From Liolophura sinensis (taxonomy: Eukaryota > Mollusca > Polyplacophora > Chitonida > Chitonidae), in assembly GCF_032854445.1 (NCBI RefSeq), contig NC_088298.1, forward strand, positions 12,759,504 through 12,823,503: a stretch of DNA of 64,000 nucleotides. Direction: 5' to 3'. A program made the position numbers and the translations under genes. The notes under the pieces are model-generated. The model had not been told where the DNA came from and did not search any database. It worked only from the letters and a program-made list of their open reading frames with translations. Below are positions 35,701 through 62,616 of this stretch, piece by piece. The number at the start of each line of letters is the position of its first letter. Position 1 is the first letter of the stretch.

Positions 35701-38700
35701 CTGTTTATTTTGCATGCAATTTTGATTTGTTGAGGACAGTTCACATGAAAAAGAATTTTTGAAAGCTAAGCTGGGAAGATTGAAGCATCTCGGATCTAGA
35801 AGATACATTGACAAGGCTATAGTAAGCTAAGCTGGGAAGATTGAATCATCTCAGATCTAGAGGATACATTGACAAGGCTGTAGTAAGCTAAGCTGGGAAG
35901 ATTGAAGCATCTCGGATCTAGAGGATACATTGACAAAGCTGTAGTATCCATTCTTCAGTGGACATTGGAAGTAAAGTGGTACAATAATAGTTAATAATAA
36001 TAATAAGAAATACAGAAATAATAGTTCTGTTTATAGTTTTGAGCAATAGATTGTGATTTTTGATGAAAGACTGGTATACAAGCTACAGGGGCCTCCGTGG
36101 CTCAGTCGGTTAGCGCACTAGCGCAGCGTAATGACTCAGGAGCCTCTCACTAATGCGGTCGCTGTGAGTTCAAGTCCAGCTCAGGCTGGCTTCCTCTCCG
36201 GCCGTAAGTGGGAAGGTCTGACAGCAACCTGCGGATGGTCGTGGGTTTCCCCCGGGCTGTGCCCGGTTTCCACCCACCATAATGCTGGCCGCTGTCATAT
36301 AAGTGAAATATTCTTGAGAATGGCGTAAAACACCAATCAAATAAATAAATAAATATACAAGCTACAGGAAGGCAGTGTTCAAAGCATCTAGATTTGCAAT
36401 GTATAAATGTTCTACAGTTGTACGGTATGTTCCATCATGACCTTGGATTCAGTTTGTAATTGTTCTGTGTAAATGTGGATGAATATGGATTCTGACTTTA
36501 TGGTTTAGATCCAAAGCAGGTGTTGAAGTGGTGTTTGGGAAGTACGGCTGTAGGCGCTCAGTACGGAAGTGTGTCATCTCTCAGCTTCAACAGAGACTGT
36601 ACCAGATTACTGAGTGGCTTTGCTAAAGGACAGGTAAGTTGACACAGACATGGCACACCTGAGCAGGTGGTGAAGTGGGGACAGCTGTACATGTAGGTGT
36701 ACAGTAAGGGAGTGTGTCATCACTGAGCTTTATCAGAGACTGGGTGGACACAGATTCAGCCGTAAAGGTAGCGCATGTCAGAGAAGTGTTGTTTAGGTGC
36801 TACAGGTACAGCCGTGGGCTTTGGTGACAACAAGCAGATGACAAGGCTTGTGTGGCCATTCCTGCATGTATCTGTATGTCAGATTCATCTTTAACTTCCT
36901 ATTAAAAAGAAAAAGGAAATGGTGGTTTACCCTGCACAGTTAGTTTCGTCCACCCATATGCCATGGTATAAATCAAAAGGTCTTGAGTACGGCGTTCAAC
37001 AACAATGAGATAAATGAATAAATAAATTAACAAAAAATTTAAGCTATGCCAAACCAGGAAGTACGTTGTTTCTTCAGCATCATAGTATGTATATGTGTGT
37101 ACATCATGCATGAATATCAAACGTGAAGATTTGAATTATTTTAATGGTTAGATCACAATGTGGGACCTAACAACAGGGAAGCTTTTAAGGACGATCACAG
37201 ATGCTCATCCTGCTGGCACAGCTGTACTCCATGTCAAAGTAAGTGTCTTAAATTGCGATCGAAACACAAGGTGAATTGTCAACAGTTTCCTTTGTGAGTC
37301 TGGGGAAATCGGGCATTTTAGCAAGCAGTATTTAAGTTATGTCTCGGTCAAAATGTAACTGTGCATTAAAATTTCCTTATTTAAAAAGAAAATTAAATGT
37401 AAAAGGACATTCTGCATTATAGCAAAGGTGCAGCTGACATCAGTGTATGGAGTGATGGAAAGTCATGCCATTTCAAATGTTTAAACAGTTCAATTACTGA
37501 AGGACACCAAGCCACGACTGATGTTAGATGAATGTAATAAAGCCATTAGTATGCTTGCCGCAGGATTACCGCAACAGGAACATGATAGCAGCAAATACCC
37601 ATCGTGTGGAACTTGCACATGCAAGGTGGAAACAGACAGTATTAGGCTTGCGAACTTTCATTTTCACCCTGAAACAGTTATTGACCTTGATACTATGTTG
37701 GAAACAGACAGTATTAGGCTTGCAAACTTTCATTTTCACCCTCAGACAGTTATTGACCTTGACACTATGGTGGTCACAGGCAGTATTAGGCTAGCGAACT
37801 TTCATTTTCACCCTTAAACAGTTATTGACCTTGACACTATGGTGGACATAGACAGTATTAGGCTTGTGAACTCTCATTTTCACCCACAAACAGTTATCGA
37901 CCTTGACACTGTGGTGGACACAGACAGTATTAGGCTTGTGAACTCTCATTTTCACCCTCAAACAGTTATCGACCTTGACACTATGGTGGACATAGACAGT
38001 ATTAGGCTTGTGAACTCTCATTTTCACCCACAAACAGTTATCGACCTTGACACTGTGGTGGACACAGACAGTATTAGGCTTGCGAACTTTCATTTTCACC
38101 CTCAAACAGTTATTGACCTTGATACTATGGTGACGAACTTTCATTTTCACCCTCAAACAGTTATTGACCTTGACACTATGGTGGACACAGACAGTATTAG
38201 GCTTGCGAACTTTCATTTTCACCCTCAAACAGTTATTGACCTTGATACTATGGTGACGAACTTTCATTTTCACCCTGAAACAGTTATTGACCTTGACACT
38301 ATGGTGGACACAGACAGTATTAGGCTTGTGAACTCTCATTTTCACCCACAAACAGTTATTGACCTTGACACTATGGTGGACACAGACAGTATTAGGCTTG
38401 TGAACTTTCATTTTCACCCTCAAACAGTTATTGACCTTGATACTATGGTGGCGAACTTTCATTTTCACCCTCAAACAGTTATTGACCTTGACACTATGGT
38501 GGACACAGACAGTATTAGGCTTGTGAACTTTCATTTTCACCCTCAAACAGTTATTGACCTTGATACTATGGTGACGAACTTTCATTTTCACCCTCAAACA
38601 GTTATTGACCTTGACACTATGGTGGACACAGACAGTATTAGGCTTGCGAACTTTCATTTTCACCCTCAAACAGTTATTGACCTTGATACTATGGTGACGA

Positions 38701-41700
38701 ACTTTCATTTTCACCCTCAAACAGTTGTTGACCTTGACACTATGGTAGACATAGACAGTATTAGGCTTGCAAACTCTCATTTTCGCCCTCAAGCAGTTAT
38801 TGACCTTGACACTATGGTGGACACAGACAGTATTAGGCTTGCGAACTTTCATTTTCACCCACAAACAGTTATTGACCTTGACACTATGGTGGAAACAGAC
38901 AGTATTAGGCTTGCGAACTTTCATTTTCACCCTGAAACAGTTATTGACCTTGATACTATGGTGGAAACAGACAGTATTAGGCTTGCGAACTTTCATTTTC
39001 ACCCTCAAGCAGTTATTGACCTTGACACTATGGTGGACATAGACAGTATTAGGCTTGCGAACTTTCATTTTCACCCTCAAACAGTTATTGACCTTGACAC
39101 TATGGTGGACACAGACAGTATTAGGCTTGTAAGCTCTCATTTTCACCCACAAACAGTTATTGACCTTGACACTGTGGTGGACACAGACAGTATTAGGCTT
39201 GTGAACTCTCATTTTCACCCTGAAACAGTTATTGACCTTGACACTGTAGTAGACACAGACAGTATTAGGCTTGTGAACTCTCATTTTCACCCTGAAACAG
39301 TTATTGACCTTGACACTATGGTGGACACAGACAGTATTAGGCTTGTAAGCTCTCATTTTCACCCACAAACAGTTATTGACCTTGACACTGTGGTGGACAC
39401 AGACAGTATTAGGCTTGCGAACTTTCATTTTCACCCTGAAACAGTTATTGACCTTGACACTGTGGTGGACACAGACAGTATTAGGCTTGTAAGCTCTCAT
39501 TTTCACCCACAAACAGTTATTGACCTTGACACTGTGGTGGACACAGACAGTATTAGGCTTGTGAACTCTCATTTTCACCCTCAAGCAGTTATTGACCTTG
39601 ACACTGTGGTGGACACAGACAGTATTAGGCTTGTGAACTCTCATTTTCACCCTCAAACAGTTATTGACCTTGACACTATGGTGGACACAGACAGTATTAG
39701 GCTTGTGAACTCTCATTTTCACCCACAAACAGTTACCGACCTTGACACTGTGGTGGACATAGACAGTATTAGGCTTGTGAACTTTCATTTTCACCCTCAA
39801 ACAGTTATTGACCTTGACACTATGGTGGACACAGACAGTATTAGGCTTGTGAACTCTCATTTTCACCCACAAACAGTTATCGGCCTTGACACTGTGGTGG
39901 ACATAGACAGTATTAGGCTTGTGAACTTTCATTTTCACCCTCAAACAGTTACTGACGTTGACGCTATGGTGGACACAGACAGTATTAGGCTTGTGAACTC
40001 TCATTTTCACCCACAAACAGTTATTGACCTTGACACTGTGGTGGACATAGACAGTATTAGGTTTGTGAACTCTCATTTTCGCCCTCAAGCAGTTATTGAC
40101 CTTGACACTATGGTGGACATAGACAGTATTAGGCTTGCAAACTCTCATTTTCGCCCTCAAGCAGTTATTGACCTTGACACTGTAGTGGACACAGACAGTA
40201 TTAGGCTTGTGAACTCTCATTTTCACCCACAAACAGTTATCGACCTTGACACTGTGGTGGACACAGACAGTATTAGGCTTGTGAACTCTCATTTTCGCCC
40301 TCAAGCAGTTATTGACCTTGACACTATGGTAGACATAGACAGTATTAGGCTTGCAAACTCTCATTTTCGCCCTCAAGCAGTTATTGACCTTGACACTGTA
40401 GTGGACACAGACAGTATTAGGCTTGTGAACTCTCATTTTCACCCTCAAACAGTTATTGACCTCGATGCTATGTCAGAGACCCGATATCCACAACCATTTG
40501 TGGTGTTTTGATTGAAAATAAGATTCTTTTTTGCTTGGAACAGACAAAAACTATAATACATACAGTGATGCACAGTTTCTTAGTTGAGTTTGCATACATT
40601 GATACAGTTTGCAGTTCCTTGCATGTCTTTTTGGGTATGCAAGACAAAAGGCTCTTTAAATATACTTTACATGTTTCCAAGTTTTTAATACATGTAAACA
40701 GTTTCATATAGAGGATGTACTTGTATAGTTATACATGTAACTGGGCAGAAGCTAAAGGAGTTTAAATTTTCATCCCCGGGTTCTACCCGGTTTCCTCGCA
40801 CCATAATACTGGCCGCCATCGTATGAGTGAAATATTCTTGAATGCAGCTTAAAATACCCATCAAATAAATAAATACTTGTTTGTAAATAAATTTTCATGT
40901 GCAATGATTTTTACTGTAGTTGTGAACTAATAGGAGAGTCCATGTTGCTGTTCATATGTGTATGTGAAGTGTGGTGTGTGTTTTGTTCAGTTCACAGACA
41001 GTTTCACAGTGGCAGTGTGTAGTGACAGTGGAGGATCTGTGTTTGAGCTTGAATTCAAGTAAGTCAGATTTATTGGGTGGGCCATCAGATGCAAGATGAG
41101 CAGCATTTTGAAAATGAACATCTTCACCTGTCTATTCACAAACATTCCATAACTTATATTATACATGAGTGGTACCTGAGAAGGTCCTCAGCAACCTGCA
41201 GATGATCATGGTTTTCCCCCCAGGCTCTGCTTGGTTTCCTCCCATCATAATGCTGGCCACCGTCGTACATGTATAAGTCAAATGTTCTTGAGAACGGCGT
41301 AAAATGCCAGTCAAATGAGTAAATGAATAAATGTTATACATAAATGGCGTGAGTTGATCTTCAAAATGAATTTAAAAGATTTGCCCCTCTGTACATTTAT
41401 TTCCAGGAAGCCAGGAACTTGTCCCATGACAGTTTTTGGCTCAGGTTACTCTATATTGTACCACATTAATTTTTTGGCTAGAACATTTAGGTGTGTACCT
41501 TCCGGTGGACTGATGGTTACTGTGCTAATGGAACGCGGTGATGATGGAGCCTCTTACCAATGCAGTCACTGTGAGTTCAAGTCCAGCTCATGATAGATTC
41601 CTCTCCAGTCATAAGAGAACTCTGTGTGGTTTCCTCCCATCATAATGCTGGCTGCCGTCACACAAGTGAAGTGTTCTTGAGTACGACGTATAACACCAGT

Positions 41701-44700: not shown

Positions 44701-47700
44701 ATGTTTTTCTCAGGGTGACTCATCAACTCTTCCGCTGCTCGCCTGGCAGTTTGTCATCATCCAGGTCTCTGAACGGGACAGAGTTATTGACCCTGTTTTA
44801 GCGTTTGCCAGGGATTCTGCCATTTACTTCTACCAGGTAACCATTTTGGATGACATTGCATTCTGTAAATATTTAGACACTTTGCTCCAACATGGGTATT
44901 GGCAAAGCTAAATGTACATTTGTCAGTATCTGGAAGCCTGATATAAGCCTATTTTCAACATCTGTAAATAGTCCAGATGTGACTTTTGACAAATTGGATT
45001 CTCTTCTCTTCCATCACTGCCATGGTAATTGAATTATTCTGTTTCATATTTCCTAGCACTAAGCAGTTTATGAGATTAGATAGGAAAGTCAAAGTGAATA
45101 GAGAATGCCCTTGTCAACAAAGCAATGAAAAGTAGATCGAAATGTGTGGTGAGGGGTTTAACATGGCTGCTGGGGTGTTACATGTATATACAACAAGGTA
45201 CCGAACAAGGTTCAGCGATAACAAACGGTTGCACAACCAACACCAAGATGATGCTGTTAAAATCTATTCTACCCCTGAAAAAAATATAGCAAAAACAGCA
45301 TATTTCATGCTGTTGCTATCTTTCACTTGCCCTGCAAAAGTCATGCATTTTAGAGCAATCAACGGTAAAGTTAGGCCATTGTGTATGTGTGATGTTGTGT
45401 CTTATTGTTGCGTGACTTGGGAATGTAAAATTTACTGTACATGGATTATGGTGTCGTAACACTGAGCTCAGATTTGAACGTCATGAAACAAATGTGGCTT
45501 TTTCCCCGAAAAAAAGCGATATCTATATACTACGAAATAACACTTTTATCACTGAAGGAAATTGTGATAGTTCACATTTTTTTGAATCATAAATAAAATC
45601 TAACAAGTAAACAAACTCAGATTCTTTTACTTGTAGAAATAAATGGCATGAAATGATATTATTCGAGAAGGTAAACGTACCTGTCGGTGTGTTGTGTGAC
45701 ACACTCAGTACCTGCCGGTGTGTTGTGTGACACACTCAGTACCTGCCAGTGTGTTGTGTGACACACTCGGTACCTGTCTGTCTGTTGTGTGACACACACA
45801 GCATTGTTTGAAAGGCCATCTCTATTAAATATGTACATTTGTACGCGGCCCACAACTGATAACAGAATAGAATACTGGACCACACATGTTGTTGGTACAG
45901 GGAAGGTAACTAGGGCGAGGTACTACAGAATCTGGATTCAGCTTCAGTGATAAATGTATCAGTTTATTGTACATGAACTTTGGAGTTGTATAGATGATAG
46001 ATACAAAATAATTTTGTGGGTGTTTTTATGAGATATCAAATTAATAAATAGTGTATCTTTATTTAGAGCATTAGTCACTGAATTCTTCACTAAAGCATTT
46101 ATGCTATTAAGATGTAAAAGGCTGTACAATTTGTCAGTATTTCAAAAAATTTGAAACATTTCTTAGCAAAAAATATTTCTCAGCAAAAATGTTTCAGAAT
46201 TCAGAAATGTTTTTGAATGACCATATCGTAGGCGAGAGTTGTGGAAGTGGTGGTGGTTGTGGTGACAGTTGAGGTTGTGTCATATTGCCATGAACAGTGA
46301 ATCATGGCAGAGGGTTTGTGGATTCTGCTAATGTTGGTGGGGCTATGGTAACAATTTATTTAATTATTTATTTGATTGGTATTTTATGCCGTATTCAAAA
46401 ATATTTCACTTATACGACGGCAGCCAGCATTATGGTGGGTGGAAACCGGGCAGAGCACGGGGGAAACACATGACCATCTGCAGGTTGCTGGCAGACCTTC
46501 CCACGTATGGACAGAGAGAAAGCCAGCTGGACTTGAACTCACAGCAACTGCATTGGCGAGAGACTCCTGGGTCATTACGCTGCGCTAGCACGCTAACCAA
46601 CTGAGCCACGGAGGCCCCCTTTAGTAACAACAAGTGGTTGGTGATACTGTTATGGCTACTGGCACAGTCTGATGTTTGTTGAACACCGCTGATTTCCACC
46701 ATTGTGGCACACCAGTTTGTACATCACATAAGGAAAGTTTGTCAGTTTACCCTGGACAGACTCCAGGTCTCCTCCACTGATATTATTGAAAGCCATGGTA
46801 GATATGTAAGGAAAAATGCTGAAAAATAAGTCAGCAACAAAATAAATAAGGAGAGATAAATCTGGCTTATTGATAAAATTAATATAATTTACACGTCAAA
46901 ATTTATGGAATTTTGTGTGTGCATTTTGTTTAATTATCTGTTTTGTACATGTAGGTTGTATGTAACACTCCACAAGACATCAAGTGTCAAGGCCTACAGA
47001 AGATGGAGGTGCCCTACAGACTATTGTCTATACAGGTAGCTTATCATACACTAATTAACTTCTTTTTTGTGGAGTCAGTACCATACACATATGTATATGT
47101 GCATTTCCATATCCTGCAGCCGATATGCCATATGTGTCTGACTGTTTTGGTTTTTTTTCTTATCTGATTTTAAACATGTCCAAGCATTATTGTTTCACTT
47201 ATGATGTTCTCACTCCCATATCAAAAACCTGAACCGCCTTGTCTTTTCACCTTGTTCTCGCCACAATATGGCTGAAATATTGTCGATGTGGCGCCATAAT
47301 CAGTAATTCACTCATTCCATATGTGTCTGCTGAAAAACCAGAGTAACAGGCTCATGACCAAACTGTTACAACGTGAGACAATGTCGATACGTATTTTCAT
47401 TTATTTATTTACTTGATTAGTGTTTTAACACTGTAATCAAGAATATTTCACTTATACGAAGGCAGCCAACGTTGTAATGGGAGAAAAAGGGGCAGAGCCT
47501 AGAGGAAACTCACAACCATCCACGGGTTTCTGGTAGACTGATATATGTAGGATTGGATATCATATAGTAGCCTGCTTTCTCGGCAGTATTTATTTATTTA
47601 TTTGATTAATGTTTTACGCCGTACTCAAGAATATTTCACTTATACAATGGCGGCCAGCATTATGGTGGGCGGAAACCGGGCAGAGCCCGAGGGAAAACCA

Positions 47701-53700: not shown

Positions 53701-56700
53701 TTTTAAGTTAATTTTTCCATATAAATTAGATGAATTATTAGACATACTTAAACTTACTATTACTATTTATGCAATGGTCTTTTTATTTCATCTCTTGTAT
53801 TGTTGCATTGTGCTTTTCGTTGCATTTTATTTTCTGGGAAAACTTTGTCAACATGGATATTAATGTAAAGAAACATACTGTACACATAAGCATGTACATG
53901 GAAAGGTTCCCTAATGGCAGAGACTTCTTAACTTGTAGGTTTACATTTTCATGTAAATATTATTTACTGTGCGTTCTCCGTTGTGTTACTCTAGCTGTTG
54001 CTGATCATTTGGTTGGGTCAGCTATCAGTGTTGGTGATGACATATCAGGTTGAAAACCTATGAAAAAGTATTCATGTTTAGATACTTCAGTGGCGGCCGC
54101 ACTTTGGCGGCATGGACTGGCACTGCTACAAGGAGACCCATGTGTTCATGTATGCACTAATACTCTAATGACTCCTCATCCTCATAGGACTGAGAAATTG
54201 TTAATGACAATATAAAAACCCAAGCATACATACACATACATGTATTTAGTTATTTATTTGATTGGTGTTTTACGCCATACTCAAGAATATTTGACTTCTA
54301 CGTCGGCAGCCAGCATTACAATGGAAGGAAACGGGGCAGAGCCCGGACGAAACTCACGACCATTAGCAGGTTGCTGACAGACCTTCCTACGTACATCTGG
54401 AGAGGAAGCCAGCATGAGCTGGACTTACAGCAGCCGTTTTGGTGAGACGCTCCTGGGTCATTATGGTGTGCAATCGCGCTAACCAACTGAGCCCCCACAG
54501 ACATGTACATATAGACAAGCTGTTCATGTTACCAATAATTAGTACAGAGTTTGTAACAGTGGATGAATGTATGAATTCTTCATTTGCTATTTGTAACAGT
54601 GGATGAATGTATGAATTCTTCATTTGCTATTTGTAACAGTGGATGAATGTATGAATTCTTCGTTTGCTATTTGTAACAGTGGATGAATGTATGAATTCTT
54701 CGTTTGCTATTTGTAACAGTGGGTGAATGTATGAATTCTTCATTTGCTATTTGTAACAGTGGATGAATGTATGAATTCTTCATTTGCTATTTGTAACAGT
54801 GGATGAATGTATGAATTCTTCATTTGCTATTTGTAACAGTGGATGAATGTATGAATTCTTCGTTTGCTATTTGTAACAGTGGGTGAATGTATGAATTCTT
54901 TGTTTCCTGTTTGTAACAGTGGATGAATGTATGAATTCTTCTTTTGCTATGGATGAATGTATGAATTCTTCGTTTGCTGTTTTATAACAGTGGATGATTC
55001 CAGGCATTCTGTGTCTGTTGTTTGTAAGAGTGGACGAACCCATGAGTTCTGCGTTAGTGTTTTGTACAAGGGGATGAGTTATGTATTTATGTTTTGTGAA
55101 AGGGGATGAGTTAAGTATTTATGTTTTGTGAAAGGGAATGAGTTAGGTATTTATGTTTTGTGAACGGGGATGAGTTATGTATTTGCTGTTTGTATCAGTG
55201 GATGAACCCACGGACACTGGTGTGCCTGGACACAGCTGAGAAACTTCATGTGATTGATGTGAGGTCAGAAGAAGAACTAGAGGTAAGAGGTCAGCTGTTA
55301 GCTATGGCCTGTTCAGATAATATCATAAATGATATGTGTAAATATTGTAAACTGTGTATGCCTATATCGTTATACATGTATGATTACATGCACATGGTCC
55401 GTAGGAGGGATTAAAGGTAGAAAATAGTGATTTGTCGGAGAAAATTAATGATCGAATCGTTTTTGAAACCTATTGCAGTCTTCAGGTTCTGGAGATGTAT
55501 AACTCTGTAACTGGCTGAAGGATTTCTTTTTGTTATCATACGTGACTTTTAATGTTTTAATCAAATGAGGCAAGGAGAGGCTTAGTTTGTTTTTATTTGT
55601 TCCTCTCAGGTGATTGACATCTCTGATGTTCAGCTGGTGTATGGTTCCAGTCACTTCAAGTCTTTAGCAACAGGAGGCAATGTTAGCCAAGCTTTGGTAA
55701 GTACATCTGTTTGTGTCTGAATAGTGTTAAGGACTTTAGTACTTCATAATCGTGCTGCTGAAAATGTGTCTTGTTACTGGATATATCGTGAATTCTGGTC
55801 TTATCCTGTCCAGCTATACTGTCAGACAATCTCTATTTTTCTGATCCATTTCAACTGTTGTACTGTACATTTGAATGCATTCTATTTTGCTGAACTGTCC
55901 ACAGGTTGTACAGTTTTACATTTGAACACATCTTAATTTCCTGATCTGTTCAACTTAAATAGGGGCCTCCATGGCTCGGTCGGTTATAGCGCAGCATAAT
56001 GACCTAGGAGTCTCTCACCAATGCGGTTGCTGTGAGTTCATGTCCAGCTCTTGCTGACTTCCTCTCCGGCCATATGTGTGAAGGTCTGTCAACAGCCTGT
56101 GAATGGTCGTGGGTTTCCCCCGGGCTCTGCCCGATTTCCTCCCACCATAATGCTGGCTGCCGTCGTAGAAGTGAAATATTCTTGAGTACACCATAAAACA
56201 CCAATCAAATAGATAAATAAATCAACTTAAATACTGCATGAAAACATTTGTGTATATAGCTCTATAAGCAACCTGTGGATGGTCGTGGGTTTTCCCATGC
56301 TCTACCTGGTTTCCTCCCATTGTACTGCTCGCTATTGTCGTATAAGTGAAATATTCTTGAGTTAAATGTATACATTTGAACACACCCTAGTTTTTTGTTC
56401 TGCGAGGGATGCATGTAAGCAGGAGGCCTGTCATGTTAACAGTCGTCCTCAGCTACTCTGGTCAGCTGTTTTAACTGGACATGCCATGATCTCATTATTA
56501 ATGCTCTGTGATAAATAAATGTACATGTACATGATATTGTGATGTTTTTGTTCCCCCAGGCGTATGCAGGAGGCCAAGCATGTTATCAGTCAGTCGTCAG
56601 CTACTCGGGACAGCTGTTTCTACTGGGCACTAAAACTGTACATGTCATGTCACTAAGGACCTGGAGAGAGGTATCCTTGTCATTACTTTTCCGTATATTA

Positions 56701-59700
56701 TGTTTACACCTTGAAGGGGCAGTTCTTTCCATGAAAGGCAAGCGGGTGTTTTCATTTGCGTCCAAATACACACAAAAAGTTTTAGGCGACCAAGTAATTG
56801 TTTGGCCATATCGTGAATAGACCATCCTTTATTGCCATCAAAATGTCCCCCGCGTGTCTATGCTTTTCGCTTGGAAATTGTTATCATTTTGAAAATGGAA
56901 GTGCTGTGTGGTAGGCTCTGTGTTGTCATCCACTGTCAGCCGGAAACAGTTTCTTAGTGGGTCATGTTAAGCATGCTTTGATTGGCTAGCAGAAATAAAA
57001 ACATTCCCTCATTGGTCTAGGGTCGATTTATAATGGCATTCTCAACAGAGATGTCAGTTCTTATCTGCCTAGCAGCAGCTAGTTGTCGGATCCATGTTTG
57101 ATAACAACTAATGGCCAGGCATGGGTTTGGAATTGTATGAACATGTCAGTCTCTGCTGGAGGATTAGTCATGTATCCGTAGGAAAACGCAGAAGCTGAAG
57201 ATGTCGCATCATATGGGTTTTAACAGTATAAAAAGTGTCGGTACCATCACAGAAACATTGCTCATAACACAAATTAAAATGTGCTCATTAAATTTGACAT
57301 CTTCAAACACTGTATAAAAGTTTGTCTTTGTAAAAGTTTGCCAGTCTGCCTACCTTGTTGGCTGCAGAGCCCTGGTCGGGGGACGCCATACTGGGAAGAC
57401 TTGCTTGGATCATGTATTGAAAAGCAGGGACAGATCCATGTATTACCCATGCTTTTCCAGAAGCTATATTACATGTATGACTTAACTATAGTTACCCCTC
57501 TTAATTAGCACAATGAAAGTCCGATGCTGTTTATGTAGGTATATTGTGAGAGTATTATTCTTTGTAGACTTTTTATGAAGTACTGAAATTGGCCAGTCCA
57601 ACCAATGTTGTTTTATCTCTAAAATCTTGACTACAAATGTGCATAATTTGTAATTTTGTACTCACCATTTTTTCTGAAGTAAAATGTAAACCTGATCTCA
57701 GGCAGAGATGTGCCTGTGGTACCTGACCACCAAATTATAATCAAAAACTCAGAGGTTCTAAGATGTACCTGAGGTACATCATTGACATTTTTTAACTTTC
57801 AAAGTTTCTAAGGTGTACCTGAGGTACTATGTCTAAGTATTGATTTTTTTTAAAAGGTTCTTGAGGTACATTTGAGATACTTGAGGTACAGTGCACCTCA
57901 GATAAAATAGATGGGGTGTACACCTCGTCTATTCCTCACACCTCGTGTCTGTAAGGCTTGTCTAGTTTCCCCTCACAGGATTTAAATTACAACATGCAGC
58001 GGCGTGTCCCACACATACAACTGCCTTTAGGTGAGTTGTCAACTGAGCTAGAGGGCTGCCCTGTAGCCTTATGTATCAGACAGCGATTGTCCCTTGTGGT
58101 CTGTGTTGTTCACAAAGAAAAGCCCGACATACCTGCAAGGTGTATGTACTGTCATGACGTCACAAGGTCAACGGTGGCTCGATCATAGGGGATTACATTT
58201 TCTGATGTTTGATCATCATGTGTATAACAGTGGAAGGTTTCCCATAATGCTGCCTTTCCTATATCCTCAGCGGATCGATGTCTTGGTGAAGCAGAATCGC
58301 TATCGGGATGCCCTGGCCTTAGCGCTGTCGTTTTATGAGGGTCGAGCAAAAGCGGTTCTTGGACTGTCAGGCTCACCACAGAAGAAAAGGGAAACAATTG
58401 CAGAGTTGGTGAGAAAGCCTGTAATAGGCACACTGTGTACCAATGTAAAGTTTATTATTATGGGAATTTGTGTGAATTCTTGTGTGAATACAAGTGTAAA
58501 AGGTTGATTCTGTGAATTCAGTTTGCCATAGAATGGTGTTTTGAGGTTTCTGTGGAAGCTGGCGTGATATCCTACTGCCAATCTCAGTTTCTGTACGATT
58601 TATTTACATGTATTTATTTATTTGATTGGTGTTTTACGCCGTACTGAAGAATATTTCACTTATACGACGGCGGCCAGCATTATGGTGGGTGGAAACCGGG
58701 CAGAGCCCGGGGGAAACCCATGACTATCCGCAGGTTGCTGCCAGACCTTCCCACGTACGGCTGGAGAGGAAGACAGCATGAGCTGGGCTTGAACTCACAG
58801 CGACTGCATTGGTGAGAGACTCCTGGGTTATTACGCTGCGATAGCGCTCTAACCAACTGAGCCATGGAGGCCTGTACGAGAAGTATTATTCAATTAAGAA
58901 GTAATATTCAGTACCAGAAGTAATATTCTGAGCCAGATGTAATATTCTGTGCCAGAAGTAATATTCTGTGCCAGAAGTAATATTCAGTACCAGAAGTAAT
59001 ATTCTGTGCCAGAAGTAATATTCTGTGCCAGAAGTAATATTCTGTGCCAGAAGTAATATTCAGTGACAGAAGTAATGTTCAGTGACAGAAGTAATGTTCA
59101 GTGCCAGAAGTAATGTTCAGTGCCAGAAGTAATATTCAGTACCAGAAGTAATGTTCAGTGCCAGAAGTAATGTTCAGTGCCAGAAGTAATATTCAGTGAC
59201 AGAAGTAATGTTCAGTGCCAGAAGTAATATTCAGTGACAGAAGTAATGTTCAGTGCCAGAAGTAATATTCAGTACCAGAAGTAATGTTCAGTGCCAGAAG
59301 TAATGTTCAGTGCCAGAAGTAATATTCAGTGACAGAAGTAATGTTCAGTGCCAGAAGTAATGTTCAGTGACAGAAGTAATGTTCAGTGCCAGAAGTAATA
59401 TTTAGTACCAGAAGTAATATTCAGTGCCAGAAGTAATATTCAGTACCAGAAGTAATGTTCAGTGCCAGAAGTAATGTTCAGTGCCAGAAGTAATATTCAG
59501 TGACAGAAGTAATGTTCAGTGCCAGAAGTAATATTCAGTGACAGAAGTAATGTTCAGTGCCAGAAGTAATATTCAGTACCAGAAGTAATATTCTGAGCCA
59601 GATGTAATATTCTGTGCCAGAAGTAATATTCTGTGCCAGAAGTAATATTCAGTACCAGAAGTAATATTCTGTGCCAGAAGTAATATTCAGTGAGAGAAGT

Positions 59701-61609
59701 AATGTTCAGTGCCAGAAGTAATATTCAGTGACAGAAGTAATGTTCAGTGCCAGAAGTAATATTCTGAGACAGATGTAATATTCTGTGCCAGAAGTAATAT
59801 TCTGTGCCAGAAGTAATATTCAGTACCAGAAGTAATGTTCAGTGACAGAAGTAATGTTCAGTGCCAAAAGTAATATTCAGTGACAGAAGTAATGTTCAGT
59901 GACAGAAGTAATATTCAGTGACAGAAGTAATGTTCAGTGACAGAAGTAATATTCAGTGACAGATGTAATATTCAGTGACAGAAGTAATATTCAGTACCAG
60001 AAGTAATGTTCAGTGACAGAAGTAATGTTCAGTGACAGAAGTAATATTCAGTACCAGAAGTAATGTTCAGTGCCAGAAGTAATGTTCAGTGCCAGAAGTA
60101 ATATTCAGTGACAGAAGTAATGTTCAGTGCCAGAAGTAATATTCAGTGCCAGAAGTAATATTCAGTACCAGAAGTAATATTCAGTACCAGAAGTAATGTT
60201 CAGTGACAGAAGTAATGTTCAGTGACAGAAGTAATATTCAGTGACAGAAGTAATGTTCAGTGACAGAAGTAATATTCAGTGACAGAAGTAATGTTCAGTG
60301 ACAGAAGTAATATTCAGTGACAGATGTAATATTCAGTGACAGAAGTAATATTCAGTTCCAGAAGTAATATTATGTGGTCTTTATTTTGCTTCTGATGATG
60401 CACTTTTTGGGCGGACAATTTAAGAGTAAATACAGTATTTCCAGAAGCTGTTAAGCTTAAACTTTATTCTCAGAGTCTGAGTCTTATTATTTGTAGATGA
60501 TATAGAAAGGACAGGTGATCATGTCATAAGTTTATGTCTGTCATGCCTGAAAAGTTTAAAGTGACAGTCCCTTCCATACTTAAAGGGCATGTCAGGTCAA
60601 ACGAAGTTAAAATTTGATCCGCTTGAGCAAGTCATTATATTTACCTGTAGGTACCATACTCGGACATAAAATAGAGATGAAAAACACATTTTGCAATGAG
60701 GTACACATAGAACTCTGGGTTATGGAAAAAAGTATTTCCCATATTTATTATACACAATCTTTGGAATCCCAAAATAATTAATAATACATGCTCCACCAAT
60801 CAGTACTGAATACTTTCCACCTTATGATACTGCAAAACCAAATTCTGACAGCAGTCTGAAAACCCAGAAATCAGTGGGCAGTCTGAATGAACAGAATGTA
60901 TATTATGCCAAGATGTCATCCCTTGAGCGTGGCATCCTGTAACAGTTAATGCAGTGTTAAGGTAAATGTTAACGGTGGTATCTGAAAAGGTGTGCATATA
61001 CACGTATGTATTGAACTCAGGTTGTGTATACTATTAGAGCACAATTTTGGATGCACTGCATGCATAATGATTGCCATAAATTACGTAAAACTTTACGACT
61101 TATCCTCCTATGTGTATTGGAATCAATGGAAAACGTCATAATAGGTTGATACCTTGAAAAAGTTCTGCATGTGTTCAGTTCAGGTTAACATGAGGGGATG
61201 CTCCATCGTTGATGCCTGCGGATGATTCCCTGGGCTCTGCCCGGTTTCCTCCCATCATAATGCTGGCCGTCCTCATATAAGTGAAATATTCTTAAATACT
61301 GCATAAAATATTAATCAAATAAATGAATCCATTGTTGATACCATACATGTGTGTTAATTAGAAATAAGTTACAAAAATTCTTTGTCTCCCTTTTTTGTTA
61401 GAATCCTTGTTAAGGTGAATGTTTATGTACTTATGTTGTTGCAATCAGGTGTCTCCTCCAGGTGCACTCTTCAGTACTAGATCTAATTGTATTTGACACC
61501 GATGTTCTCTGTGCAGATGCTGGACCTGCTATTTGAGTTTGTAGACTTGTCTATGACACAGTTTTGTCCTGATCAGGGGAAGGTTGAGGAACTTGAAGAA
61601 TATTACCAG
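26658..61609 (+). CDS. VPS8: VPS8 CORVET subunit, 5' part, 19 exons
   Basis: Join: 26658-26723, 27836-27904, 28274-28404, 29914-30004, 33800-33832, 35113-35167, 36509-36633, 37152-37238, 40991-41058, 41928-41978, 42894-42996, 44063-44119, 44714-44836, 46955-47035, 55199-55282, 55610-55696, 56560-56670, 58271-58408, 61517-61609. All introns are GT-AG, phases agree, total 1653 nt (551 codons). VPS8 is the Rab5-binding end subunit of CORVET, which tethers early endosomes for fusion. Landmarks as in animal VPS8: L-D-D-K-E-F-D-L-P with T-L-E-S-I-L-N-E (23-45), V-D-A-G-M-P-T-A (122-129), A-V-G-T-S-H-G-L (136-143), G-F-A-K-G-Q-I-T-M-W-D (185-195), C-S-D-S-G-G-S-V-F-E-L (229-239), L-P-L-L-A-W-Q-F (317-324), S-S-H-F-K-S-L-A-T-G-G (421-431), G-R-A-K-A-V-L-G-L-S-G (498-508). 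These cover the N-terminal propeller and the start of the solenoid. Human VPS8 is about 1430 residues, so roughly 60 percent, including the C-terminal RING-like domain, lies to the right. Confidence 0.95.
27836..27904 (+). CDS. VPS8: VPS8 exon 2 (residues 23-45)
   Basis: Acceptor CTTCTTTTCAG, donor GTAAGA, both phase 0. It encodes the conserved D-D-K-E-F-D-L-P and P-T-L-E-S-I-L-N-E motif found near the N-terminus of animal VPS8. Confidence 0.92.
28190..28264 (+). mobile_element. SINE family C 3' part, abutting VPS8 exon 3
   Basis: TGTCGCCAAAATATGGCTG, GCTGATGTGGCATAAAGCCA and a (TCAT)n tail form the 3' end of a third SINE type, also seen at 47255-47318. It ends about 10 bp before the exon 3 acceptor, so its tail supplies part of the pyrimidine tract. 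Confidence 0.65.
28274..28404 (+). CDS. VPS8: VPS8 exon 3 (residues 46-89)
   Basis: Acceptor TTTCTTGCTGCAG, donor GTAAGA, ending after two bases of codon 89. It encodes an acidic then serine-rich linker (E-T-S-S-V-S-S-Q-E-S) ending in a basic R-T-R-K-K-D, as at the equivalent place in vertebrate VPS8. Confidence 0.9.
28534..28690 (-). mobile_element. SINE family A, 5' truncated (intron 3)
   Basis: Reversed tail and body up to CTTCCCACTTACG; the tRNA-like head is missing. Three overlapping open frames here (28520-28781) are SINE read-through. Confidence 0.88.
29010..29284 (+). mobile_element. SINE family A, full length (intron 3)
   Basis: The head GTGTCTCAATTGGTTGGCGC is mutated in the A-box region; the rest is complete to (AAAT)5. 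Open frames on both strands over it are not genes. Confidence 0.9.
29625..29690 (+). repeat. Short tandem repeat, about 3 copies of 23 bp (intron 3)
   Basis: ATTTGGTGGGAGCA recurs at about 23-bp spacing, the last two copies with AATGAAGTCC. Confidence 0.7.
29914..30004 (+). CDS. VPS8: VPS8 exon 4 (residues 89-119)
   Basis: I place the acceptor at GCTTGTAG/GAGCC. It completes codon 89 and keeps the frame of H-G-S-I-L-R-P and N-I-S-A-Q-L-L-S-A-A, the conserved lead into the propeller. The stronger-looking acceptor TATTTTGTAG at 29860 would shift frame after exon 3 and add 18 codons absent from relatives. Donor GTAAGT, phase 0. Confidence 0.85.
30005..31610. other. VPS8 intron 4, left part, nothing recognised
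   Basis: AT-rich with poly-A and poly-T tracts near 30092 and 30160. The plus-strand frame at 30271-30513 has no motif or splice support. Confidence 0.4.
31611..33665 (+). repeat. 25-bp minisatellite, about 82 copies (VPS8 intron 4)
   Basis: Units are ACTTGAATACATACACTGTA+CATGG and a variant TTTGAATATATATACTGTA+CTAGGA-type, often alternating in the left half; the right half is mostly the first type. As 25 is not a multiple of three, three units make a 25-residue peptide repeat (M-Y-S-V-C-I-Q) in overlapping minus-strand frames up to 176 codons. These frames are by-products. Confidence 0.92.
33800..33832 (+). CDS. VPS8: VPS8 exon 5, 33 nt (residues 120-130)
   Basis: Acceptor TTTTTATCTCCAG, donor GTATGT, phase 0 on both sides. 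D-R-V-D-A-G-M-P-T-A-M matches the strongly conserved entry to the propeller. The exon is very short and follows a 3.8-kb intron. Confidence 0.92.
33882..34204 (+). mobile_element. SINE family B, nearly full length (intron 5)
   Basis: Head CCGGCCCGGATAGCACAGTT to tail GTATGACGTTAAACCCC and (CACT)n. It lacks the GAAGTTGTAACTTCC block present in the copy at 20618-20975. Confidence 0.92.
34647..34884 (-). mobile_element. SINE family A with 12-bp target duplication (intron 5)
   Basis: TGGGTAAATTTT at 34635-34646 and 34885-34896 flanks the element. The body is diverged, and the part carrying the B box is shortened. Confidence 0.85.
35113..35167 (+). CDS. VPS8: VPS8 exon 6 (residues 131-149)
   Basis: Acceptor GCTGTTTTACAG, donor GTGAGT after one base of codon 149. 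A-V-S-N-L-I-A-V-G-T-S-H-G-L-V-L-V-F is the first propeller strand block, nearly invariant in the family. Confidence 0.95.
35763..35945 (+). repeat. 61-bp tandem repeat, 3 copies (intron 6)
   Basis: AAGCTAAGCTGGGAAGATTG starts at 35763, 35824 and 35885; copies are over 90 percent identical. Confidence 0.9.
36090..36353 (+). mobile_element. SINE family A, full length, 15-bp target duplication (intron 6)
   Basis: TATACAAGCTACAGG at 36075-36089 and 36354-36368 flanks a complete element with intact A box (TGGCTCAGTCGGTTAGCGC) and B box (GTTCAAGTCC). The clean duplication and low divergence suggest a young insertion. Confidence 0.94.
36509..36633 (+). CDS. VPS8: VPS8 exon 7 (residues 149-190)
   Basis: Acceptor ATGGTTTAG, donor GTAAGT. 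C-L-G-S-T-A-V-G-A-Q-Y-G and C-T-R-L-L-S-G-F-A-K-G-Q are conserved WD40-like blades of VPS8. Confidence 0.95.
36953..37035 (+). mobile_element. SINE family A 3' fragment (intron 7)
   Basis: TCTTGAGTACGGCGTTCAAC and an (AAAT)n-type tail remain; the upstream part is not recognisable. Confidence 0.55.
37152..37238 (+). CDS. VPS8: VPS8 exon 8 (residues 191-219)
   Basis: Acceptor AATGGTTAG, donor GTAAGT, phase 0. I-T-M-W-D-L-T-T-G-K-L-L-R-T-I-T-D-A-H is a classic WD-repeat ending followed by the H-P-A-G-T-A-V-L-H turn. Confidence 0.95.
37626..40478. repeat. 72-bp minisatellite, about 40 copies, open on both strands (VPS8 intron 8)
   Basis: Unit of 72 bp containing ACAGACAGTATTAGGCTTG, CTTTCATTTTCACCC and GTTATTGACCTTGAC. 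Several units are shortened by 21 bp, all in 38130-38735. Periods of 72 and 51 keep one frame per strand open: plus 37839-40511 (890 codons, D-S-I-R-L-V-N-S-H-F-H-P), minus 37791-40448 (885 codons, K-V-N-N-C-L). A single CAA to TAA change near 37816 splits the plus frame. Base changes between units are a mix of silent and replacing, with no sign of selection on either frame. It lies wholly in an intron. Confidence 0.92.
40772..40877 (+). mobile_element. SINE family A 3' half (intron 8)
   Basis: From CCCGGGTTCTACCCGGTTTC to an (AAAT)n tail; ATTCTTGAATGCAGC is diverged. Confidence 0.85.
40991..41058 (+). CDS. VPS8: VPS8 exon 9 (residues 220-242)
   Basis: Acceptor TGTTTTGTTCAG, donor GTAAGT after two bases of codon 242. 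V-C-S-D-S-G-G-S-V-F-E-L is a hallmark VPS8 blade. Confidence 0.95.
41176..41334 (+). mobile_element. SINE family A, 5' truncated (intron 9)
   Basis: Starts near GAAGGTCCTCAGCAACCTGC. A small insertion (CATGTA) interrupts the usual CGTCGTATAAGTG. Confidence 0.85.
41505..41720 (+). mobile_element. SINE family A with internal deletion (intron 9)
   Basis: The diverged head is followed by GAGTTCAAGTCCAGCTCATG and the 3' half. The CAACCTGCGGATGGTCGTGG block is missing. Confidence 0.8.
41928..41978 (+). CDS. VPS8: VPS8 exon 10 (residues 242-259)
   Basis: Acceptor TTTTGTTACAG, donor GTAAGG. R-L-I-G-V-R-T-C-D-S-R-C-L-F-S-G is one of the most conserved VPS8 segments. Confidence 0.95.
42155..42208 (+). 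mobile_element. SINE family A tail fragment (intron 10)
   Basis: AAAGTTCTTGAGTTTGGTG to AAAACACCAATCAAATAAAT only. Confidence 0.7.
42470..42702 (+). mobile_element. SINE family B, 5' truncated (intron 10)
   Basis: Begins within the body (TTGACCCGTATCAGTATAAT) and runs to GTACAATGTTAAACCC and ACTCACTC. The tRNA-like head is absent. Confidence 0.9.
42894..42996 (+). CDS. VPS8: VPS8 exon 11 (residues 259-293)
   Basis: Acceptor CTCTTGTTTCAG, donor GTGGGT. R-G-E-V-C-I-V-E-P-L-H and K-D-H-P-M-Q-D match family consensus. The frame remains open into the intron to 43134, which is not coding. Confidence 0.95.
43000..44062. other. VPS8 intron 11, nothing recognised
   Basis: Small open frames at 43252-43479 (minus) and 43535-43786 (plus) show no motif; no SINE was recognised. 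Confidence 0.45.
44063..44119 (+). CDS. VPS8: VPS8 exon 12 (residues 294-312)
   Basis: Acceptor CCACCACTACAG, donor GTATGT, phase 0. The coding frame is V-L-L-V-S-L-K-P-Q-L-K-V, equivalent to the L-V-I-G-L-K-P-S-L-K-V of vertebrate VPS8; the longer open frame over the same bases (43954-44205) is in another phase and is not coding. Confidence 0.93.
44714..44836 (+). CDS. VPS8: VPS8 exon 13 (residues 313-353)
   Basis: Acceptor GTTTTTCTCAG, donor GTAACC (fifth base C, a weaker donor). L-P-L-L-A-W-Q-F-V and D-P-V-L-A-F-A-R are conserved. Confidence 0.95.
45677..45800 (+). repeat. 31-bp tandem repeat, 4 copies (intron 13)
   Basis: GTACCTGCCGGTGTGTTGTG starts at 45677, 45708, 45739 and about 45770. 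Each unit includes the odd palindrome TGTGTGACACA. Confidence 0.88.
46354..46618 (-). mobile_element. SINE family A, nearly full length (intron 13)
   Basis: Reversed tail (TTTGATTGGTATTTTATGCC) to head ending GGAGGCCCCC. A short deletion removes the region around GCCAGCATGAGCTGG. Confidence 0.9.
46955..47035 (+). CDS. VPS8: VPS8 exon 14 (residues 354-380)
   Basis: Acceptor TTTTGTACATGTAG, donor GTAGCT. V-V-C-N-T-P-Q-D-I and V-P-Y-R-L-L-S-I-Q fill the blade between exon 13 and the W-M-N-P block; sequence is less conserved here, but phase and length fit. Confidence 0.85.
47255..47318 (+). mobile_element. SINE family C 3' fragment (intron 14)
   Basis: CGCCACAATATGGCTGAAAT, TGTCGATGTGGCGCCATAAT and a TCACTCATTC tail, the same family as 28190-28264. 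Confidence 0.65.
47398..47540 (-). mobile_element. SINE family A, 3' half, diverged (intron 14)
   Basis: Reversed tail and body to CCACGGGTTTCTGG; the head is lost. Confidence 0.8.
47588..47755 (-). mobile_element. SINE family A, 3' half (intron 14)
   Basis: Better preserved than its neighbour 50 bp upstream; ends at CAGCCGGGGAGGAA. The two lie in the same orientation, nearly in tandem. Confidence 0.88.
47757..47818 (+). repeat. 29-bp tandem duplication (intron 14)
   Basis: AGTAGAATGATGATACACTG with TTAAATGAC is present twice in direct succession, directly after the SINE. Confidence 0.85.
48070..48800 (+). repeat. Diverged local duplications (intron 14)
   Basis: CTAAAACACWATG with CTTCCATACTTT recurs at 48201 and 48331 (130-bp spacing) with a third weaker copy after it. 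Separately, TTCACTGCATCACAA with TGTACAGAT occurs at about 48087 and 48753. Confidence 0.6.
48850..49118 (+). mobile_element. SINE family A, full length, 9-bp target duplication (intron 14)
   Basis: TCAAACTGT lies at 48841-48849 and 49119-49127. Internal promoter boxes are intact apart from one inserted T in the A-box region. Confidence 0.92.
49130..50565. other. VPS8 intron 14, nothing recognised
   Basis: About 1.4 kb of AT-rich intron without a SINE, array or coding signal. GATGAGGCTC-like strings at 50300-50400 recur weakly. Confidence 0.4.
50570..50650 (+). mobile_element. SINE family A 3' fragment (intron 14)
   Basis: CTCCTACCATAATGCTGCCC to the AATAAATAAG tail. Confidence 0.8.
50757..50910 (+). 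mobile_element. SINE family A, 5' truncated (intron 14)
   Basis: Starts at GGCCGTACGTAGGAAGGTC and runs to the tail. The head and B box are missing. Confidence 0.88.
51430..51626 (+). mobile_element. SINE family A, 5' truncated before the B box (intron 14)
   Basis: Begins at GTGTGAGTTCAAGTCCAGC. ACAGCACATTA flanks both sides (about 51415-51425 and 51626-51636), a probable target duplication for a truncated insertion. Confidence 0.88.
52014..52308 (+). repeat. 295-bp direct duplication, copy 1 (intron 14)
   Basis: Practically identical to 53671-53965. The breakpoints are sharp at the right end (TATTATTT then CAATG here, ACTGT in the other). A peptide frame in it (from 52112) is shared by both copies but has no start context or family match. 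Confidence 0.9.
52872..53147 (+). mobile_element. SINE family A, full length (intron 14)
   Basis: CCCTACGAT precedes the head (52861-52869) and follows the (AAAT)n tail (53149-53157), a 9-bp target duplication. A box TGGCTCAGTTGGTTAGAGC and B box GTTCAAGTCC are intact. Confidence 0.93.
53298..53332 (-). mobile_element. SINE family A short internal fragment (intron 14)
   Basis: GGGGAAACTCACGACCATCT and GCAGATTGCAGG match the middle of the element only. Confidence 0.5.
53583..53655 (+). repeat. tRNA-like relic (intron 14)
   Basis: GTCTAATTGGTTAGAGTGTG and CTGGATCAAACCCAGC sit at tRNA-like spacing. No proper acceptor stem can be paired, so a tRNA-derived head or pseudo-tRNA is more likely than a gene. 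Confidence 0.4.
53671..53965 (+). repeat. 295-bp direct duplication, copy 2 (intron 14)
   Basis: Starts directly after the tRNA-like relic. It differs from copy 1 by only a few bases over the whole length. Confidence 0.9.
54088..54236 (+). mobile_element. SINE family B-like 3' part, diverged (intron 14)
   Basis: GGCGGCATGGACTGGCACTG resembles the body of the variant copy at 5541-5985 (GGCATGGACTCGCCCTGCC), followed by the worn GTCATATGAC motif and tail. Confidence 0.65.
54244..54497 (-). mobile_element. SINE family A, nearly full length (intron 14)
   Basis: Reversed tail to a diverged head ending at CAACTGAGCCCCC. It lies directly next to the family B fragment and about 50 bp before the 40-bp array. 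Confidence 0.88.
54551..55198 (+). repeat. 40-bp array copying the VPS8 exon 15 splice acceptor
   Basis: Ten units start TTGTAACAGTGG at exact 40-bp steps from 54551 to 54911, then one truncated unit, then one at about 54980 with TTATAACAGTGGATGA. More diverged copies with lost AG or altered spacing continue to the exon. The unit TTGCTATTTGTAACAG/TGGATGAA differs at 2 of 24 positions from the true acceptor and exon start TTGCTGTTTGTATCAG/TGGATGAA. The exon 15 boundary is thus the last member of the series. Confidence 0.92.
55199..55282 (+). CDS. VPS8: VPS8 exon 15 (residues 381-408)
   Basis: Acceptor CTGTTTGTATCAG, donor GTAAGA, phase 0. W-M-N-P-R-T-L-V-C-L-D and E-K-L-H-V-I-D are conserved. 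The tract upstream is not pyrimidine-rich apart from short T runs, and about eleven near-identical acceptors precede it. Confidence 0.93.
55610..55696 (+). CDS. VPS8: VPS8 exon 16 (residues 409-437)
   Basis: Acceptor TTGTTCCTCTCAG, donor GTAAGT, phase 0. V-Q-L-V-Y-G-S-S-H-F-K-S-L-A-T-G-G-N-V-S is the most conserved run of the family. Confidence 0.96.
55962..56222 (+). mobile_element. SINE family A, nearly full length (intron 16)
   Basis: TCAACTTAAAT just before the head (about 55947-55957) and CAACTTAAAT after the tail (about 56223-56232) form the target duplication. A small deletion affects the GCGCGCTAGCGC region between the promoter boxes. Confidence 0.92.
56262..56362 (+). mobile_element. 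SINE family A 3' fragment (intron 16)
   Basis: AAGCAACCTGTGGATGGTCG to AATATTCTTGAGT; the A-rich tail is missing. Confidence 0.82.
56560..56670 (+). CDS. VPS8: VPS8 exon 17 (residues 438-474)
   Basis: Acceptor TTTGTTCCCCCAG, donor GTATCC (weak at positions 4-6). A-C-Y-Q-S-V-V-S-Y-S-G-Q-L-F and L-G-T-K-T-V-H-V-M close the propeller. The open frame continues to 56820 beyond the donor but loses family similarity. Confidence 0.94.
56671..58270. other. VPS8 intron 17, palindromic GTACCTGAGGTAC cluster
   Basis: No SINE. At 57710-57910 the near-palindrome GTACCTGAGGTAC and partial forms recur at irregular spacing. Overlapping open frames just before exon 18 (57958-58188, 58094-58507) are in other phases or read into the exon. 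Confidence 0.5.
58271..58408 (+). CDS. VPS8: VPS8 exon 18 (residues 475-520)
   Basis: Acceptor TTTCCTATATCCTCAG, donor GTGAGA, phase 0. R-I-D-V-L-V-K-Q with A-L-A-L-A-L-S-F-Y-E-G-R-A-K-A-V marks the propeller-to-solenoid transition. Confidence 0.96.
58599..58871 (-). mobile_element. SINE family A, full length (intron 18)
   Basis: CTGTACGA at 58591-58598 and 58872-58879 is the target duplication. Promoter boxes are intact. The 19-bp array begins directly after the right-hand duplication. Confidence 0.93.
58880..60370 (+). repeat. 19-bp minisatellite, about 78 copies (VPS8 intron 18)
   Basis: Unit CCAGAAGTAATATTCAGTR with variants ATGTTC/ATATTC, CCAGA/ACAGA and CTGTG/CAGTG. Variants cluster into longer repeating blocks, so parts were amplified as multi-unit segments. 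Confidence 0.93.
60371..61204. other. VPS8 intron 18, right part, nothing recognised
   Basis: No array or SINE. The minus-strand frame at 60800-61003 has no motif. Confidence 0.4.
61205..61330 (+). mobile_element. SINE family A 3' fragment (intron 18)
   Basis: GCCTGCGGATGATTCCCTGG to AATCAAATAAATGAAT, with an altered ATTCTTAAATACTGC core. Confidence 0.85.
61517..61609 (+). CDS. VPS8: VPS8 exon 19 (residues 521-551), last exon in the window
   Basis: Acceptor TTCTCTGTGCAG, donor GTAAGG, phase 0. M-L-D-L-L-F-E-F-V and C-P-D-Q-G-K-V-E-E-L match the solenoid start, where relatives have C-P-D-Q-G-K. Confidence 0.95.
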
Positions 61610-62616
61610 GTAAGGCTGCAACATTACTGGCTTCTTACACTCCATGAAAAACTCCTGTTATTCCTGGAAAATGATATGAACTTAAAGGAGTTAGCTCCTG
61701 GAGACTTTCACGGCCATTCATTGTCCTAAGAGCTGTAGAAATTTGTGCATTCCTGAAAAAAAAATCAAAGACCAAACGTGTCATGTTAGTTTCCCCTTTG
61801 TGCATACAAATTGCTTGCGTCCTCGGTGATAGCAGTTGTGATGTCATTGTCACAGGAAGATTGACCATATGTTCATGTAACAAGTGTGTGTGTTTCCCTT
61901 TCAAAAGTAGGTTGGTACCTACGCATGTCACACTGTTCAAAACAGTTTTCTGATTAATTTCTAAGAGCTGCATTAATGGTCAAAATGGCATTGTCTACAA
62001 ATATCAAGTTTTTTAACTGGTTGGTGCAGTATTCTGTCTGGCAGATTAAAGGAAAAGACCTCTGAAAATTGAAGTAGGCATCACTAATTAGACCACTTAA
62101 AACTATGCATAAATTTACTTTCATTTATTGTTTTTACATGTTTGTGAGAAGAGTTAAAGGCGTTTGAAACATTTGAATTCTAAGGTGGGCTTATTGGAAC
62201 AAACTATCAGTGTTGAATGTTGAAATAACTCTTTTTACTGAAATCATAATAAATAATAATGTTCCCAAATATTCCTTCAGAGTTCCTAGATTCTGTCAGT
62301 GTGGCTCATAAAGCCCACTATAGTATTCAAGTATTAGAAATGCCTTTCAACATTCTTTAAAGAATCTGAAAAATTAAGTGGAAGATTTTTACACATAGTT
62401 TTCAGTTGTCTGTACGGTGAATCTTCATTCATATTTTTTTTACTAATTACATCGACAAAGTTTCGTTCATAAGATTAAGAATTGCTGTGTCTGTTATAAG
62501 TAACAAAGGCATAGATTATTTGTTACATTGTACTTAACACATCTCATGTGATTCTTTAGAAAAGCGTGGGAATTTGTGATTGTTCCCAGAATGAACATAT
62601 ATGTCATCATGCCCTG
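61610..62616. other. VPS8 intron 19, left part, nothing recognised
   Basis: I searched for the next solenoid segment expected in the family and did not find it here. Confidence 0.45.

Follow-up and report, generated by a model that had tools for sequence, protein, structure and literature searches.

A minisatellite in VPS8 intron 14 of the chiton Liolophura sinensis, probably derived from the adjoining intron-exon boundary

The DNA analysed here (the window) is a stretch of 64,000 nucleotides from contig NC_088298.1 of Liolophura sinensis. The chiton genome was published as Liolophura japonica (PMC11068029) and later corrected to L. sinensis (PMC12441733); RNA-seq reads from five tissues (BioProject PRJNA973839, SAMN35319765-69) and HiFi reads (SRX20411988) of the species are reported to be public (PMC11068029). 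The array described below lies within VPS8, which was identified by matching the joined exon peptides to the Pfam profile PF23410 (Beta-prop_VPS8, E = 5.9e-87). This profile has seven matches in the genome, all of them within this VPS8 gene. The PF12816 profile gave no match over the genome, and neither did a control profile. Rfam had no matches in window positions 40000-64000, and a PDB search returned two capsid-protein chains (E 0.16 and 0.2), which were taken as chance. The last base of exon 14 is 47035, and its junction with the TGG start of exon 15 is of phase 0 (Q|W). Exon and intron numbers follow the count of an earlier, sequence-only reading of this DNA. The relevant features, in window coordinates, are:

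46955-47035, plus strand: VPS8 exon 14 (VVCNTPQDIK...LLSIQ), phase-0 donor CAG/GTAGCT
54243-54484, no strand assigned: dispersed-repeat copy just upstream of the array and outside its unit, matching the fetched segment L004:2733-2973 at 72.6% and recurring in the window
54550-54950, plus strand: main array of the 40-bp unit, carrying ten acceptor-like CAG sites (TRF 10.0 copies, 96% matches)
54951-54990, plus strand: shortened unit (about 30 bp), then the eleventh CAG copy, ending at 54990 (CAG/TGGATGATT)
54991-55070, plus strand: decayed units without CAG, ending at 55030 (GAG/TGGACGAA) and 55070 (AAG/GGGATGAG)
55058-55184, plus strand: degenerate 32-bp sub-array in register with the true boundary (TRF 4.0 copies, 91%)
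55180-55219, plus strand: true intron 14/exon 15 boundary 40-mer (19 intron and 21 exon bases), the proposed source of the unit
55199-55282, plus strand: VPS8 exon 15, WMNPRTLVCLDTAEKLHVIDVRSEEELE, 84 nt, donor GAG/GTAAGA

The ten CAG ends of the main array (54559, 54599 ... 54919) are spaced by exactly 40 bp. Within 54541-55199 the motif CAGTGG[A/G]TGA occurs 11 times, CAGTGGATG nine times and CAGTGGATGAATGTATGA eight times; the earlier count of about eleven units in a CAG/TGGATG context thus holds if A or G is allowed at one place. CAG is lost in all five copies nearest exon 15 (55030-55166), and in the 32-bp sub-array it is replaced by AAG at 55102 and 55134 and by ACG at 55166. Either selection or age could be behind this loss. 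The 32-bp copies are probably of shared descent, so their CAG losses are not independent. The ends at 55030, 55070, 55102, 55134, 55166 and 55198 follow one another in steps of 40, 32, 32, 32 and 32, the last being the true acceptor, so that by spacing the authentic boundary is the last unit of the adjoining array. Compared with the true 24-mer, seven of the 16 upstream units match at 22 positions and two at 21, and the remaining seven match at 19, 18, 16, 16, 15, 14 and 14. The 22 of 24 given by the sequence-only reading is therefore right for the commonest unit. The internal units are homogenised (96% matches in the main array) and the exon-proximal ones are divergent. The assembly search found no second haplotype of the array locus. 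A 201-nt piece of the array, folded as RNA, gave z = -1.81, with 8 of 200 shuffles equally stable. The dispersed repeat upstream of the array is presumably tRNA-SINE-like.

The true boundary 40-mer, in a register picked after the sequence had been inspected, matches the window array consensus at 29 of 40 positions, the 55030 unit at 29 and the consensus of a second array on contig C1 (described below) at 28; the best values among 1328 other CAG sites of the window were 24, 21 and 21 for the window consensus, the C1 consensus and the 55030 unit, respectively. Exon 15 and the commonest unit have the first eight exon bases, TGGATGAA, in common. Identity between the window array and the boundary amounts to 16/19 on the intron side and 13/21 on the exon side. 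Exon bases 10-21 are matched at 5/12 positions by the window consensus, 6/12 by the C1 consensus, 7/12 by the 55030 unit and 8/12 by the 54990 unit. As similarity past the first 8-9 exon bases is only moderate, an exonic reach of about 20 nt for the unit is not firm.

A model based on sequence only was built from 12 array dimers (seven from C1 and five from the window, of which two overlap), the exon being left out. At E up to 1 it gave 10 matches in the window. The top five were the main array, and the best match after them was the true boundary (55168-55213, 26.3 bits, E = 3.5e-7). Three of the others fall in the repeat chain and one lies elsewhere (36444-36493, E = 0.016). The proposal that the minisatellite consists of copies of the real acceptor, lying directly upstream in register, is borne out by both comparisons (29/40 against 24 for the controls, and the E-value above). 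For other VPS8 boundaries (nine acceptors and three donors, one of the donors being that of exon 15 and adjoining the same exon) the best window match elsewhere was 22-25 of 40, versus 29 for the exon 15 acceptor. Eight other TRF arrays of the window were compared as well. For seven of them the best outside match was 24-26, and the array at 6008-6583 reached 32, to sequence beside that array. A survey of kinase loci for tandem repeats (30 of 138 matches; 110,436 bases) gave 21 TRF rows; many of its top matches were long open frames, and it yields no mirage frequency.

Among eight single alanine changes scored against PF23410, the W that opens exon 15 causes the largest loss (7.8 bits), M, N, P, R and T costing 3.9, 2.6, 0.9, 1.4 and 1.8 bits. 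The change of the Q just before W costs 1.4 bits, and that of the S three residues ahead of W gains 0.2. When WMNP is deleted, the score drops from 293.8 to 271.1 (-22.7 bits, partly gap penalty). As the W of exon 15 is a conserved residue of VPS8 by this profile, the exon is the most likely source of the unit, and the exon 15 boundary as a whole may most likely be regarded as its origin. Derivation of the array from the exon 15 acceptor thus appears well supported by homology and register.

A second 40-bp array of the VPS8-intron unit is located on contig C1 at about 82973994-82974707 (L003:994-1707 of the fetched segment), on the minus strand (TRF 16.5 copies, 81% matches). Its alignment with the window array covers 388 bases at 73%, and in the 54919 unit the 19 intron-side bases agree exactly with their counterparts in two units on C1. 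DNA and pattern searches of the genome, which can miss repeats, located the unit family at these two places, and the many arrays across the genome that would mark a dispersed satellite were not found by them. Given the second array on C1, the unit appears to have moved between chromosomes. The pattern searches also gave scattered two-mismatch matches, the reversed-pattern controls giving 4+2 and 3+2. Nine two-mismatch matches to the unit core lie at C5:19173877-19178807, eight of them being TATGTGACAGTGGATGAATG, with distances of, for instance, 210 and 126 between them; this cluster is perhaps a separate tandem array.

The C1 array is interrupted by a high-copy dispersed repeat of about 500 bp. 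A query with this repeat, which held about 15 array bases, gave 40 scored copies (C1 included) of 2135 candidates. Since array-like sequence is present on both sides of the repeat and the array query finds only two places in the genome, we read the repeat as an insertion into the array. A copy of the same repeat is found in the window at 62046-62437 (83% to L003:1705-1873 and 80% to L003:2028-2189), and no array sequence follows it, which describes the flank of one copy. A transposon origin of the array seems less likely on these grounds: the array query finds only two places, the one repeat copy whose flank was inspected, that in the window, lacks it, and array-like sequence flanks the repeat at C1. 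A duplicate of VPS8 at C1 was rejected: tblastn of the joined exons against L003-L005 (19 kb) gave 55 rows with a best E of 2.6 (5.6 for L003). Exon 15 alone, searched by tblastn in the 19 kb around the C1 array, gave a best E of 0.26 and no convincing VPS8 exon.

Arrays of this kind have been described before. The sequence-only reading regarded an amplified 3' splice site as unusual, but tandemly duplicated intron-exon boundaries have already been reported in lancelets under the name of "mirages" (PMC3087553; PMC3902484). PMC3087553 describes repeat numbers differing between two haplotypes, and Adh3 and RT-PCR data suggesting that regular splicing is undisturbed; PMC3902484 adds TnC and PGBD5 mirages and states that no aberrant mRNAs arise from the Adh and TnC mirages. 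As in the BflGb6 mirage (PMC3087553), the unit of the VPS8 array spans the 3' end of an intron and the start of an exon, splice signals are present in many but not all repeats, and internal units are homogenised while edge units are not. The unit of 40 bp compares with 150-160 bp in BflGb6 and 10-72 bp in Adh3 (PMC3087553), and with 60 and 108 bp in PGBD5 (PMC3902484). Judged by its sequence, the VPS8 array has the anatomical features of a mirage. It differs from those of lancelets in its mollusc host, in the VPS8 gene and in having a second array of its unit on another contig. Besides, normal splicing is reported for the lancelet mirages (PMC3087553, PMC3902484) and presumed for the VPS8 array.

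We consider it probable that the array is a mirage-type minisatellite that originated from the VPS8 boundary, was homogenised, had its unit spread to C1 and is nearly neutral for splicing. A segment of about 40 bp, taking in the last bases of intron 14 and the first of exon 15, would have been duplicated in tandem and then, presumably through slippage or unequal exchange, expanded and homogenised in place. Towards the exon the units would have decayed and been partly shortened to 32 bp, with the distal ten remaining nearly identical. One unit, or a short run of them, may then have reached another chromosome and expanded there. The distal copies would be tolerated: the spliceosome most likely still uses the true acceptor, since the 84-nt exon behind it has a good donor and CAG is missing from the five copies closest to it. 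Homology, register, the gradient of decay, the profile-conserved start of the exon and the second array are visible in the sequence itself; the direction of copying, the mechanism of expansion, the move to another chromosome and neutrality for splicing are inferred from it.

Near neutrality has to be weighed against the splicing potential of the copies, which we scored on a crude scale based on generic frequencies. On this scale the true exon 15 acceptor scores 2.8, second lowest of ten, the other nine VPS8 acceptors ranging from 2.3 to 8.5. Ten of the eleven CAG decoys outscore it on the same crude scale (3.6-4.7, with 54559 at -0.5), which speaks against neutrality, and the CAG-less copies at 55030, 55070, 55102 and 55134 score from -2.5 to 1.4. 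In nine of the ten 40-bp decoys the 40 bases upstream contain no further AG. The crude donor scores are 6.2 for exon 15, 2.2 for exon 14 (GTAGCT at 47036, a weak donor on this scale) and 1.0 for AAT|GTATGA of a putative microexon. With a weak exon 14 donor and a weak exon 15 acceptor, intron 14 would have weak signals at both ends, as far as the crude scale can tell. Splicing to a decoy had been predicted to read W-M-N-V and then a premature stop; this is what eight of the ten 40-bp units give, the other two giving W-V-N-V-stop, and 54990 reads through 28 codons before its stop. Together, the scores and readings make decoy use plausible on sequence, and it is regarded as possible. The suggested in-frame 9-nt microexon (W-M-N) fares worse: GTATGA is indeed present nine nucleotides into the unit, but the donor is poor (1.0 versus 6.2 on the crude scale) and the intron between one such microexon and the next would measure no more than 31 nt, so the microexon remains a weak proposition.

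A rival explanation is functional and takes the array for a series of poison acceptors. Some of the transcripts would be spliced to the decoys, read W-M-N-V-stop and be degraded, and copy number would tune VPS8 output. The decoy scores above that of the true acceptor, the absence of another AG for 40 bases in nine of ten units, the weak true acceptor and exon 14 donor (all scores on the crude scale) and the stop within five codons for ten of the eleven CAG decoys would all suit such a function. Outside the chiton, boundary tandem repeats can change splicing in human genes (PMC2812944), and an intronic minisatellite of C. elegans is associated with multiple splicing decisions (PMC4039745); in light of these cases, a regulatory role of the VPS8 array stays conceivable. 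However, lancelet mirages of similar anatomy are reportedly spliced normally (PMC3087553, PMC3902484), CAG is lost in the five copies nearest the exon, and homogenisation alone can account for the intact CAGs of the distal units. We regard the poison-acceptor function as unlikely, and tuning of VPS8 output by copy number, as the sequence-only reading had proposed, as unlikely too.

An equally unlikely alternative concerns the direction of copying: a pre-existing 40-bp satellite, such as that on C1, could have invaded intron 14 and provided exon 15 with its acceptor. The unit does occur on C1, where the 19 kb fetched contain no convincing VPS8 sequence, and the C1 array is old enough to have been interrupted by a dispersed repeat. 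The identity of the window array to the boundary is stronger on the intron side (16/19) than on the exon side (13/21), and an origin elsewhere is conceivable for the intron side taken by itself. On the other hand, the unit carries the TGG-ATG-AA start of the exon, whose W is profile-conserved, and in a satellite of foreign origin this match would have to be accidental; besides, the searches by DNA and by pattern, in which repeats may be overlooked, turned up only two arrays. The C1 array, the window array and the 55030 unit are about equally distant from the exon boundary, so these three distances favour no particular order of events.

A combination, in which acceptors amplified in place act as poison sites that set the loss of VPS8 pre-mRNA and the unit was exported to become a splice-site-derived satellite elsewhere, seems less likely again. 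Chance resemblance or an assembly artefact is very improbable: the window is rich in tandem arrays (41 TRF rows, some overlapping), which can be misassembled, but the match lies above all 1328 control CAG sites, the array model reaches E = 3.5e-7, and the units differ from each other at several positions in an assembly reportedly made from PacBio HiFi reads (PMC11068029).

If the array is indeed a boundary-derived minisatellite, the phenomenon extends from lancelets to a mollusc, and to a conserved host gene found once in the genome by the propeller profile (PF23410). The mollusc host and the sister array on another chromosome are what is new with respect to known mirages. No mollusc mirage was among the literature matches listed, and one may still be in print. 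The locus offers two natural tests: one of the way in which the spliceosome of an animal copes with some ten nearly identical acceptors upstream, the other of whether boundary arrays seed satellites elsewhere. A minisatellite supplying multiple splice donors in an interferon-induced transcript was reportedly described in Nucleic Acids Research (1995;23:1854); its unit would be a splice site, as in the VPS8 array, the site being a donor there and an acceptor here. The interferon-induced transcript is presumably 6-16/G1P3. In human duplicated genes, exon-intron boundary tandem repeats can generate alternative splicing (PMC2812944), and tandem duplication close to splice or proto-splice sites is reported to bring about intron gain or changed splicing (PMC2891723, PMC2812944). 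In these systems tandem duplication multiplies splice signals as it does in VPS8, but new introns or splice forms are reported for them, whereas the chiton array is a feature of the genomic sequence.

The window holds several other tandem arrays. A 72-bp array at 37625-40462 and a 36-bp array at 12577-13917 are open on both strands (897/893 and 456/461 codons, respectively), which periods divisible by three allow. Two more are long: a 25-bp array at 31607-33663 (82 copies) and a 19-bp array at 58879-60371 (79 copies), which lies between VPS8 exons.
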